From Candidatus Adiutrix sp. (GTDB lineage Bacteria; Desulfobacterota; Desulfarculia; Adiutricales; Adiutricaceae), in the NCBI GenBank assembly GCA_031283395.1, contig JAITBV010000308.1:1-5098 (forward strand): 5,098 nt of DNA. Direction: 5' to 3'. A program made the translations under genes and the position numbers. Shown here one piece after another: positions 2,426 to 4,532 of the stretch (position 1 is the stretch's first letter; the number at the start of each line of letters is the position of its first letter). Under the pieces are notes generated by a model. That model saw only the letters and a program-made list of their open reading frames with translations, made no database searches and was not told the origin of the DNA.

Positions 2426-2689
2426 ATGAGCATATCAGCCGGCCCTAAAACTCAATATGAACACCTTCTGACCCAGGCCGCCAAACTGGATCGGGCCGCC
2501 CAGATTGATTTTCTTCTGGATCTGGCCTCGCAAATGCGCCAAATTCAGGCGGCCGAATCTGAGGTCAAGCCCGACCTTCGAGAGGGCCGGAAGGGAAAGG
2601 ATGCCTATGCCCAACTTATGGCCTTCCATAAAGGACGGCGGCTGAATGAATTGACGCTTAAAGATTTGATGCTTGAAGGGCGCAGATAA
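2426..2689 (+). CDS. Probable antitoxin of a VapBC-like type II toxin-antitoxin pair
   Basis: This encodes a small soluble protein of 87 residues starting at ATG 2426, eight bases after GGGAG. I do not recognise a named DNA-binding domain. Residues 10-45 look like a helical, Leu/Ala/Gln-rich segment. The 50-75 region is basic and charged (REGRKGKDAY). The C-terminus, LNELTLKDLMLEGRR (73-87), resembles the short amphipathic toxin-binding tails of antitoxins that precede PIN-domain toxins. Function is inferred mainly from position: its stop codon abuts the start of the PIN gene with no gap, both sit behind one promoter, and size and order (antitoxin first) fit VapBC. In such pairs the antitoxin neutralises the RNase and the complex represses the operon. 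Base composition is lower in GC than the upstream core genes, consistent with horizontal acquisition. Confidence 0.72.
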   Translation: MSISAGPKTQYEHLLTQAAKLDRAAQIDFLLDLASQMRQIQAAESEVKPDLREGRKGKDAYAQLMAFHKGRRLNELTLKDLMLEGRR

Positions 2690-3100
2690 TTGCCCGCCTT
2701 GATACTTGACAGTTCCGTGACTTTAAGCCTGGCCTTTGAGGATGAGTGCGACGACTTCACCAGGCGGGTTTTTGAAGCCGTAAAACAGGCAGGGGCCTTG
2801 GTGCCCTCCTTATGGCGCCTGGAAGTCGCCAACATCATGGTCAGCAGCGTTAAGAGAAAACGGCTGACCGGGCCTGACGCCGGGCTCTTTTTATCATTAT
2901 TGTCCACTCAACCAATTCAGGTGGCCGATGACAATAACCTATCCGCCGCCGCCCTTTACGAGTTGGCTCTTCGTTACGGCTTGACCGCCTATGATGCGGC
3001 TTATCTGAATCTGGCCGAAATAACAGGCCTGCCTCTGGCTTCCAAGGATGCGGCTTTGAAAGCCGCTGTCATAAAGGCCGGCTTAAAATTGTTTGCTTGA
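2690..3100 (+). CDS. PIN-domain ribonuclease toxin (VapC-like)
   Basis: This encodes 136 residues, a normal length for VapC. The start is TTG 2690, directly after the antitoxin stop TAA (2687-2689), with GAAGGG about a dozen bases upstream. It is supported because the first beta strand with the catalytic aspartate (ALILDSS, Asp7) begins immediately. All four acidic residues expected for a metal-dependent PIN nuclease are present: Asp7, Glu45 (in LWRLEVAN, with Asn48), Asp102 (in TAYDAAYLNLA) and Asp120 (in LASKDAAL). The active site therefore looks intact. VapC toxins cut RNA, often tRNA or rRNA, and are held inactive by their antitoxin; the target here cannot be read from sequence. The rare start and tight coupling would keep toxin output below antitoxin output. 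No hairpin terminator follows; a pyrimidine-rich stretch begins just after the stop. Confidence 0.88.
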   Translation: MPALILDSSVTLSLAFEDECDDFTRRVFEAVKQAGALVPSLWRLEVANIMVSSVKRKRLTGPDAGLFLSLLSTQPIQVADDNNLSAAALYELALRYGLTAYDAAYLNLAEITGLPLASKDAALKAAVIKAGLKLFA

Positions 3101-3163: not shown

Positions 3164-3192
3164 TTGACAGTTGGCAGTACATGGGTTAAACT
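3164..3192 (+). promoter_or_regulatory. sigma70-type promoter of the structured RNA and DUF3800 gene
   Basis: A perfect -35 box TTGACA (3164-3169) is followed after 17 bases by TAAACT (3187-3192), which keeps the key first, second and last bases of the -10 consensus. Transcription should start around 3198-3200. That is precisely where the first strand of the predicted RNA structure begins (3200), which supports both calls. The promoter lies inside the repeat-flanked unit, so the module carries its own expression signal. Confidence 0.72.
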
Positions 3193-3198
3193 ATTTTC

Positions 3199-3272
3199 GG
3201 TAGCACGGCGTTTGGGCTACGCCTAAATACCCTGCGCCACTTCCGAAGCCCACATGAAAATGTGGGCTTTCG
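3199..3272 (+). ncRNA. Compact structured RNA upstream of DUF3800: pseudoknot plus GAAA-capped hairpin
   Basis: Two elements are visible. First, a possible H-type pseudoknot: GUAG (3200-3203) pairs with CUAC (3217-3220), while GGCGU (3207-3211) plus GGG (3214-3216) pair with GCGCC (3234-3238) plus CCC (3230-3232). An A-rich 9-base loop (3221-3229) lies on the other side. Second, a perfect 10-bp stem, 3246-3255 with 3260-3269, closed by a GAAA tetraloop (3256-3259) and followed by UUUCG. The second hairpin may act as a weak terminator, processing site or structural domain. An alternative simple stem, GGCGU with ACGCC (3219-3223), competes with the pseudoknot. From memory, Weinberg and colleagues described a set of 'DUF3800' RNA motifs that lie upstream of DUF3800 genes; this is very likely a member or relative, though I cannot assign the subtype. 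It could work as a trans-acting RNA partner or antidote, or as a cis leader of the gene 15 bases downstream. Confidence 0.7.
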
Positions 3273-3287
3273 CGTTCAAGGCTTCAA

Positions 3288-4049
3288 ATGCACTATTTTG
3301 TTTATTTGGATGAATTTGGTCATATCGGCCAGTTTGTATCAAGGAGTCATGAAAAATTCCATTCAAGCCCGGTCTTTGGGTTGGGCGGGATAATTTTGCC
3401 TGTTAACGAAGTCCGTCCTTTTTCAATGTATTTTTACAAACTTAAAATTAACTTACTGAAAACTGAAATTGAAAAAGATGGAAAGCATCCTTCAAAATGG
3501 GAGAAGAAAGGCTCGGCGCTCTATACGGTGCAAAACCTGACAAAATATGCTGAACTACGCACGGCAACAAACCGTATTATAAATAAAATAAATAATACAA
3601 ACGGATTTCTTTTTTATACCGGCATTCGTAAGGCCGCTCCCTCTCCAGAACATAAACCAGAGGCGCTTTATGTTTCCGTCCTGAAGGACGCTATCCGTCG
3701 GTTAGATGCGTATTTCGCTGATCTTAATTCCACCTTCAGCTTGTTTTTAGACGCTATTGACAGTAACGAGTCGGGAGATAAAAGGAAATTCCGCCTAAGC
3801 GGGATTGAGGCGGCTACTTTCGAAATGTTCGGCGCAGACCCCAAAAATTCACTTTTAGAGCCGCCCTATCAGCTGGAAAGCCATATCTACCAAAATTTAC
3901 AATGCGCGGATTGGTTTTGCGGTTTATTTAACAGGCTCTCTTCCCATCGCGTATCTCCGGATCAGTATCCTGATTTTGAGTGCTTTGAAAAATATTTTGG
4001 CACCCGGCTTAAGACGATTTTAAAAGCAGACAGCGGCTTGCGCCGGTAA
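3288..4049 (+). CDS. DUF3800 domain-containing protein
   Basis: This encodes 253 residues from ATG 3288, six bases after AAGG (3278-3281). The family start motif YLDEFGHIG lies at residues 6-14 (Asp8, Glu9), then FGLGGIILP (30-38), a basic middle with KWEKKGSALYT (70-80), LFLDAID (152-158, Asp155), and the C-terminal signature LESHIYQNLQCADWFCGL (196-213) with the QxAD motif (Gln205-Cys-Ala-Asp208). The spaced acidic residues Asp8, Glu9, Asp155 and Asp208 suggest an RNase H-like nuclease fold; that is inference, as the biochemical role of the family is not established to my knowledge. No membrane segment or signal peptide is seen. The gene is clearly less GC-rich and richer in AT-ending codons than guaA, the amr genes or the flagellin gene, so it was probably acquired. 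Its own promoter and a structured RNA lie directly upstream and 16-bp repeats flank the unit. This suggests a self-contained RNA-protein module, perhaps in defence or toxin-antitoxin style. Confidence 0.9.
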   Translation: MHYFVYLDEFGHIGQFVSRSHEKFHSSPVFGLGGIILPVNEVRPFSMYFYKLKINLLKTEIEKDGKHPSKWEKKGSALYTVQNLTKYAELRTATNRIINKINNTNGFLFYTGIRKAAPSPEHKPEALYVSVLKDAIRRLDAYFADLNSTFSLFLDAIDSNESGDKRKFRLSGIEAATFEMFGADPKNSLLEPPYQLESHIYQNLQCADWFCGLFNRLSSHRVSPDQYPDFECFEKYFGTRLKTILKADSGLRR

Positions 4050-4335: not shown

Positions 4336-4382
4336 ATAAAAATGACTAGGAAAAAGATATGATTCACCCTAGACCCGGCCTA

Positions 4383-4447
4383 TGGACCCCGGCTTTCGCC
4401 GGGGTGACGGAAGAGAAAACCGTCATTCCGGCGAAAGCCGGAATCCA
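4383..4447. repeat. Pair of dispersed REP-like palindromic elements in inverted orientation
   Basis: A 28-base unit at 4383-4410 and its inverted relative at 4420-4447 are separated by 9 bases. Each contains its own 8-bp stem with a 4-base loop: 4386-4393 with 4398-4405, and 4425-4432 with 4437-4444. The right unit, containing ATTCCGGCGAAAGCCGGAAT, is of the widespread type that reads 'TCATTCCGGCGAAAGCCGGAATCC' in many proteobacterial genomes. The two units differ at four positions, arranged as two compensatory pairs, so each stem stays intact. Such elements may act as transcript-end stabilisers or be moved by REP-associated transposases; no transposase is in the window. Confidence 0.72.
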
Positions 4448-4532
4448 CCCAACCCGGCCCGGCCCGGCCAGGGCCAGATCGCCCGCCGGCCCGGCCTCGC
4501 CGGTTTAGTTTAACGGCTCCCCATCAAACAAC

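Follow-up and report, generated by a model that had tools for sequence, protein, structure and literature searches.

Positions 3198–3282 of the window, the 5,098-nucleotide stretch of DNA analysed here, are a member of a conserved RNA family that matches no family in Rfam 15, and the RNA lies just ahead of a gene for a DUF3800 protein on the same strand. It is marked by a match to a sigma-70-like promoter at its start, by a fold of two hairpins (P1 and P2) and by a near-constant pairing with the genes sampled from this DUF3800 clade. We propose, at slightly better than even confidence, that RNA and gene form a two-gene module in which the short RNA acts in trans as a candidate antidote to a putative DUF3800 nuclease toxin. 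RNAs associated with DUF3800 are known as a class; the family described here, modelled as R1, and its solitary copies, which stand without the gene, appear to be new.

In the window, the whole R1 match (3198–3282, forward strand, as are all features of the module) scores 50.4 bits, the window itself being among the 79 sequences from which the model was built. P1 spans 3199–3238, and its pairs, 3199–3200/3237–3238, 3203–3205/3233–3235 and 3207–3208/3230–3231, come from covariation and, for the inner part, also from the minimum-energy fold. The two strands are spelled CGG-UA-GCA and UGC-G-CCA, with UA against G as the internal loop. According to fold and alignment, P1 is capped by an apical hairpin at 3210–3228 (GUUUGGGC-UAC-GCCUAAAU), whose length and sequence differ widely among homologues. 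P2 starts with UCCG at 3242–3245, which is invariant in the 79 aligned sequences (T45, C46, C47 and G48 of the window row), and the hairpin itself (3244–3272; the window reads CUUCCGAAGCCCACAU-GAAA-AUGUGGGCUUUCGCGUU in this part), seen in both fold and covariation, has 12 pairs, a bulged U at 3268 and its GAAA loop at 3256–3259. A preliminary description of this DNA, made from the sequence, had pointed out a perfect 10-bp stem with a GAAA loop, and that stem is found at 3246–3255/3260–3269; the family register differs slightly at the base of P2, where C3244–G3272, G3245–C3271, A3246–U3270 and A3247–U3269 pair and U3268 is bulged. The alignment ends the RNA with a conserved 3′ tail at 3273–3282 (CGUUCAAGGC in the window, GUGUUUCUGG in the family), which is still recognisable in most solitary copies. 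Inside the tail lies a Shine-Dalgarno-like AAGG (3278–3281), the RNA ending at 3282 and the ATG standing at 3288. The stretch 3195–3290 folds at −38 kcal/mol (z −3.86), and none of 200 shuffles was equally stable. No repeat of the RNA was seen in the window, where R1 gives a single match on the gene strand, in agreement with the earlier statement that tandem RNA repeats are absent.

Upstream of the RNA, a −35 hexamer TTGACA (3164–3169) and a −10 hexamer TAAACT (3187–3192), separated by a spacer of 17 nt, match the promoter consensus at 10 of 12 positions. The expected start is at about 3198–3199 and P1 begins at 3199; the start had been predicted earlier at about 3199, coinciding with the first paired base (3200). 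The position of the −35 hexamer relative to P1 recurs in homologues. The promoter test covered 77 loci, two of the 79 aligned sequences being left out; a promoter-like pair precedes the RNA in 62 of them, compared with a mean of 42.7 in shuffles, and is absent in 15. In 38 of the 77 loci the best promoter match has a −10 element that ends 3–8 nt 5′ of the first P1 base, a spacing seen in 3.0 loci on average, and never in more than 7, across 50 shuffled sets. Because of this recurrent spacing, transcription of the RNA probably starts at P1.

The protein alone was used to gather loci: the best 80 of 161 in species genomes, together with 22 on viral contigs. Most of them show the same arrangement, set at an almost constant distance ahead of the gene. 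The family consensus reads [GAG][RC]GCA, variable hairpin, UGC[C]CUC, UUCCGAGGCCC, hairpin, GGGCUUUCGYGUUUCUGG. The covariance model R1 was built from an alignment, A2, that holds 79 of 88 extracted sequences (the nine omitted are near-duplicates and the long L079) and in which a sequence motif guided the placement of P1, 12 rows being set by hand. R1 matches each of the 100 loci searched (the window and L001–L099) once at E 0.01 and on the gene strand, with weak scores in L098 and L099 (21.3 and 26.6 bits) despite their inclusion in A2. Two more loci, L101 and L102, match and L100 does not, so that 102 of the 103 related genes sampled have the RNA upstream; this bears out the tie between upstream RNA and DUF3800 gene suggested by the preliminary description. 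Five loci outside A2 (L084, L089, L096, L101 and L102) match at 37–49 bits, the first four having been missed by the gathering script. Ten of 25 listed phage and plasmid loci were fetched, among them phiO18P, the same phage as L083; eight match at 48 bits or more, a Gordonia locus matches weakly (21.5 bits), and no R1 match was found upstream of a short Agrobacterium gene. A Rhodococcus plasmid gene, whose protein identity is 29%, has a match of 51.5 bits upstream.

Carriers of the RNA include Geobacter, alpha-, beta- and gammaproteobacteria, Acidobacteria, Binatia, Longimicrobiales, a cyanobacterial and a Nitrospinota metagenome-assembled genome (MAG) and Rhodococcus; as many of them are MAGs, single taxon names may be mis-binned. 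The nearest full-length locus encodes a protein 51% identical to that of the window, and no near relative of the window DNA was reached. In L020 (Ca. Burkholderia verschuerenii, 1246–1305), the 30-nt P1 hairpin appears by eye to be tandemly doubled ahead of P2, which recalls the repeats of type III antitoxins. The predicted N-terminal extensions of the proteins P0008, P0009, P0012, P0013, P0019 and P0078, for example FRGPHTHVGFRV, resemble by eye a translated P2 hairpin, so that some database start codons seem to be placed inside the RNA.

The two hairpins are supported by covariation. On A2, 90.2% of the cells in P1 and P2 pair, and 15 of the 21 pairs have changed on both sides. The paired fraction is inflated for P2 because the gathering script demanded a P2-like stem; P1 was not under such selection, save in the 12 hand-set rows. 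The covariation score of 0.397 compares with 0.172 in shuffles (0 of 500 reached it) and with at most 0.133 when partners were slid. Under a home-made, tree-based null, the five strongest of 2028 column pairs all lie in P1 or P2 (2–41, 55–73, 10–34, 57–71 and 9–35), with E-values from 0 to 0.117, that is, below 0.05 in two (2–41 and 55–73), 0.05 in two more and 0.117 in one; the sixth pair (35–41) and the eighth to tenth lie outside the P1/P2 structure. RNAalifold alone predicts only P2 on A2, which we ascribe to the unalignable P1 loop. Covariation among homologous upstream regions, put forward earlier as a check, is thus seen in both stems.

The pairs that covary are not those of the compact H-type pseudoknot first read in this RNA, which was not confirmed: the covarying P1 pairs use 3199–3208 with 3230–3238. 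As read, the pseudoknot would join GUAGC (3200–3204) to GCUAC (3216–3220), a 3′ partner that sits in the apical region of P1. This region (A2 columns 12–32) is absent or unalignable in most homologues, and covariation therefore has no hold on the proposed pairing. With the pseudoknot unsupported, the closest resemblance to ToxI lacks support too. Two other pairings were tried and rejected. A pseudoknot of the 5′-terminal GAGACGC with GUGUUUC in the tail pairs in 77.2% of cells, compared with 77.4% in shuffles; sliding the partners gives lower values (at most 61.2%), but the covariation score is 0.251 against 0.253 in shuffles. Anti-Shine-Dalgarno pairs between the 3′ strand of P1 and the ribosome site form in 54.7% of cells, again with 54.7% in shuffles.

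Searches against Rfam 15 returned no row at the gathering threshold in the window, where the best rows fall on an inverted repeat at 4371–4459. In 20 loci only two tRNAs reached gathering, and in four further loci only P34 did, away from the RNA. The DUF3800 families, run at permissive thresholds, gave no match on the gene strand in the window segment, in 10 loci or in 15 loci. The comparison with the Rfam DUF3800 models that had been suggested earlier thus found nothing on the gene strand; DUF3800-VIII appeared antisense at 14.8 bits (gathering 40.2, E 4.6). A Leu_leader row over the RNA region of L010 (20.4 of 50 bits, E 8.9) is at chance level, and in L117, a match that we set aside, the RNA stretch is overlapped by a tRNA match and by a chance-level row on the other strand. 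The DUF3800-I model (115 positions) found no match in four carrier genomes, nor in control genomes. DUF3800 RNA motifs were reportedly described by Weinberg et al. in 2017. Those in Rfam, such as RF02969 (DUF3800-I), RF02968 (DUF3800-IX) and RF03075 (DUF3800-VIII), resemble the present family in being structured RNAs with a DUF3800 gene and differ from it in that the gathering score of none is reached in the window, homologous or solitary loci scanned. DUF3800 is associated with putative noncoding RNAs in passages of one paper (PMC10910872), and elsewhere excerpts from the literature name the DUF3800 Rfam families only in passing; no role for DUF3800-associated RNAs was found in the literature searched.

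The open reading frame downstream of the RNA (3288–4049, 253 amino acids) was called a DUF3800 gene in the preliminary description, and this assignment is borne out by a PF12686 match at E 1.7e-13 (51.9 bits, cut-off 21). Its AlphaFold2 model is confident and has an RNase HII-like fold, RNase HII being the best among the fold matches listed, and residues D8, E9, D155 and D208 show no variation among homologues wherever they are covered. On this model the protein is nuclease-like, and we treat it as a predicted nuclease. Its likeness to RNase HII and RNase H2 is one of fold: identity is 7–14% in the first 20 fold matches, Pfam at E 0.001 returns DUF3800 only, with neither an RNase HII family nor Abi_2, and a sequence search of PDB chains up to E 1 has no RNase H among its matches. 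In excerpts from the literature, DUF3800 figures as an accessory protein with an RNase H fold in some CRISPR loci of types V-A2 and VI-F, so the domain need not always be a toxin.

How far RNA and protein depend on each other was addressed by scanning with R1 blind to the protein, in 297 genomes from the phylum of L001, 385 from the class of L005 (Thalassospira), 249 from the genus of L040 (Pseudomonas) and 300 from the order of L003; scans of more than 40 genomes ran with stricter filters, in which weak matches are lost. Matches of at least 45 bits numbered 1, 9, 20 and 3, respectively. A DUF3800 reading frame, whole or interrupted, lies within 1.5 kb of 20 of these 33 matches and is missing from 13. 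Without the four seed genomes, the gene stands beside 16 of 29 matches and 13 of 29 have none within 1.5 kb. Set against the 102 of 103 genes preceded by the RNA, this gives p 2.6e-9 in Fisher's exact test, in which the loci are not independent; L113–L115, for example, are one locus in sister species, so that there are fewer events than genomes. The cut-off of 45 bits (40 for the L005 class) was our choice, made because the weak matches L104–L107, L118–L121, L144–L152 and L172–L174 (25–31 bits), none with a DUF3800 reading frame, look chance-like and because L117 (37.5 bits) overlaps a tRNA match. L143 (33.5 bits), which has no DUF3800 reading frame, is not in the 45-bit counts.

The dependence runs in one direction. 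Among the 249 Pseudomonas genomes, the protein occurs in 13, all of which have the RNA, and the RNA at 45 bits or more occurs in 20 genomes, seven without the protein and three with an interrupted one. In the L005 class (385 genomes) the protein occurs in six, with the RNA in five of them (once at 40.1 bits) and the remaining one (G676) at a contig edge, and four of nine genomes with an RNA of at least 40 bits lack the protein. Fourteen genomes hold a solitary RNA (G738 with a 33.5-bit RNA only); 13 of them have no such protein at all, and in G495 an interrupted DUF3800 gene lies beside its other RNA copy. In G697, G739 and G745 a good RNA stands next to a DUF3800 gene that is split or truncated. 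A protein without an upstream R1 match, where upstream DNA is present, was found only in L100 and L161, both distant or short relatives.

Judged by their sequences, the solitary copies give a mixed picture: from flank comparison, compensatory changes and signs of decay, part of them appear maintained and others relic-like. The solitary RNAs of L139, L140 and L142 are 90–95% identical, well above the nearest 100 bp upstream (36–63%) and the stretch 100–300 bp upstream (18–35%). Downstream, L139 and L140 are 73% identical and the others 30%, and recombination may have played a part. Fitted to the R1 model, the 15 solitary copies pair in 83.8% of cells, and 12 of 21 pairs have changed on both sides, both values lying above all shuffles; no more than seven of the 15 can form the two pairs at the outer end of P1. 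These retained compensatory changes and the high identity of the three RNAs speak against the view that the RNA is indeed an antidote while its solitary copies are decaying relics without a function of their own, a view that we consider rather improbable. It draws on the loss of 12 nt of the promoter stretch in L114 and of one P2 pair in L115, and on L143, where the RNA is 78% identical to those of the others, L140 included, below the identity of its upstream flank to that of L140 (82–83%), the reverse of conservation. A weak gene remnant alongside the solitary RNA of L122 and the interrupted genes that accompany intact RNAs in L108, L126, L128 and L135 fit it as well. A dead module loses a gene of 760 nt more readily than an RNA of 80 nt, and for this reason too part of the solitary RNAs may be relics.

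Three roles for the RNA, as an antidote, as a guide or cofactor, or as a leader controlling the protein, had been offered at the outset. The antidote fits best, the protein without the RNA being near-absent while the RNA without the protein is found; this one-way dependence, of protein on RNA and not the reverse, favours it together with the phage and plasmid settings. In such a module, an RNA of about 85 nt would be made in excess, bind the DUF3800 nuclease and hold it inactive. The gene would be translated from a read-through transcript, with a ribosome site that overlaps the conserved RNA tail, and because of this overlap the free protein could bind the leader too and damp its own synthesis. 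A drop in RNA supply, through phage shut-off of host transcription or loss of a plasmid or prophage, would free the more stable nuclease, which would then cut nucleic acid; like RNase HII, it might act on RNA or RNA-DNA hybrids. On this view the solitary RNAs would be leftover or retained antidotes, and the promoter of the module could supply the RNA independently.

The main rival of the antidote is a cofactor ribonucleoprotein, in which the RNA would stay bound to the DUF3800 nuclease as a subunit and would activate it or direct it to its target, in the manner of OMEGA or CRISPR effectors. A near-obligate RNA beside the gene suits a cofactor as well as an antidote, and the RNase H-like fold and the presence of DUF3800 in CRISPR loci noted above also point this way. 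However, the RNA has no obvious unpaired variable stretch that could serve as a guide, its variable parts being P1 and the apical loop, and among related Pseudomonas loci the variation in P1 consists, by eye, of paired-stem changes. Solitary RNAs in protein-free genomes would also be unexpected, and we regard this explanation as unlikely, though worth keeping in mind. The same solitary copies, with a recognisable structure and in some cases a promoter match, disfavour a pure leader, that is, a cis-acting 5′ untranslated structure that would let the protein or a ligand regulate DUF3800 translation, to which we give somewhat less weight still. The overlap of tail and ribosome site is what a leader would predict, as is a hairpin that in many loci sits about equally close to the start. 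A leader should also stay attached to its gene, which the 13 gene-less matches among 29 do not; six Achromobacter loci have 90–129 nt between the RNA end and the homology-inferred start codon, and the P1 3′ strand pairs with the ribosome site no more often than in shuffles. That the RNA is an ordinary intrinsic terminator of the upstream gene seems very improbable. P2 is GC-rich and followed by a U-rich tail, but P2 of the window is absent from the predicted terminators, the tail is broken by a conserved CGYG, P1 covaries, and a promoter match stands directly upstream in the 38 loci mentioned above.

Among published systems, the logic of AbiF–AbiFr would be, by analogy, the closest to the antidote that we favour. 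An Abi_2 protein gene is there preceded by a structured RNA on prophages, according to passages of two papers (PMC12373285; PMC12737573), as a structured RNA precedes the protein gene here, and in the first of these the RNA neutralises the AbiF toxin in cis and in trans. The differences are that AbiF is described in part of PMC12737573 as a HEPN protein, whereas the window protein has an RNase HII-like fold; that RCd22 has two abiF motifs and the present module a single RNA unit; and that AbiF–AbiFr requires an Abi_2 domain, which the window protein lacks in Pfam at E 0.001. The layout of the type III systems (ToxIN, AbiQ, TenpIN and CptIN) is shared in part, as the preliminary description had proposed: an RNA gene lies upstream of a nuclease-like gene with one consensus promoter match, and the support that a pseudoknot would have lent is missing. 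In type III systems, as portrayed in sections of PMC12373285, the antitoxins are tandem repeats, the ToxI unit is a pseudoknot and the named toxins are ToxIN homologues; here, a single two-hairpin unit accompanies an RNase HII-like fold. Each of the 100 loci holds one R1 match at E 0.01, with L020 alone showing the doubled P1, and without tandem repeats the module is not a type III toxin-antitoxin system by definition. Between RNA and gene, no terminator is called at P2 in the window, and the family tail is U-rich but interrupted.

More broadly, one could imagine an undescribed RNA-antidote system that crosses phyla, in which one RNA unit of two hairpins holds a nuclease of RNase HII fold in check on phages, plasmids and chromosomes, solitary RNAs are kept by phages and bacteria as immunity to nuclease copies that arrive from outside, other DUF3800-associated RNAs are also antidotes, and CRISPR-linked DUF3800 descends from such a toxin, as has been proposed for Cas13 from AbiF; this larger picture is speculative, and taken as a whole we think it doubtful. 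The antidote hypothesis can be tested directly on the R1 family, which is compact, consists of a single unit and combines a predicted nuclease fold and a consensus promoter with naturally solitary RNAs and with interrupted genes. If the hypothesis is true, an RNase HII-like toxin would join the systems in which an RNA restrains a nuclease, and this would bear on the origin of RNA-guided defences from RNA-bound toxins.

No recurrent neighbour gene of the module was found among annotated loci. In phage phiO18P it is flanked by unrelated genes. A Pseudomonas plasmid has it close to a PIN toxin pair, a Sphingomonas plasmid close to TIR and caspase genes, and an IncC plasmid among phage genes. The 4.7-kb Thioclava plasmid p6 (L157) has two annotated genes, one of them DUF3800 with its RNA, and offers a natural test case for plasmid maintenance. 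The solitary copies have surroundings of their own. On the viral contig L163 (7089–8102), whose record contains no DUF3800, the solitary RNA (58.1 bits) ends 14 nt from a convergent Abi_2 gene (PF07751). In L142 and L143 the gene 3′ of the solitary RNA is a DUF1493 gene (PF07377, tested in L142 only), and a neighbouring gene looks by eye like pckA. In L131 (944–1030) and L140 (2909–2993), C4 antisense RNA (RF01695) lies within 1.5 kb of the solitary copies, which points to prophage remnants.

In the window itself, three small proteins had no match in PADLOC or NCBIfam. Upstream of the RNA, at 2426–3100, a reading frame of 87 amino acids without a Pfam match is directly followed by a PIN-domain reading frame (PF01850); from its sequence the pair looks like a VapBC-type pair, and a promoter-like site lies at 2372–2400. 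The long imperfect inverted repeat at 4371–4459 (CCCCGGCTTTCGCCGGGG / CCGGCGAAAGCCGG) draws sub-threshold Rfam rows on both strands and may be a REP- or MITE-like palindrome. Further upstream, at 121–2326, Pfam identifies LigB-like, AMMECR1 and radical-SAM genes in a row, which we take to be a known neighbourhood.
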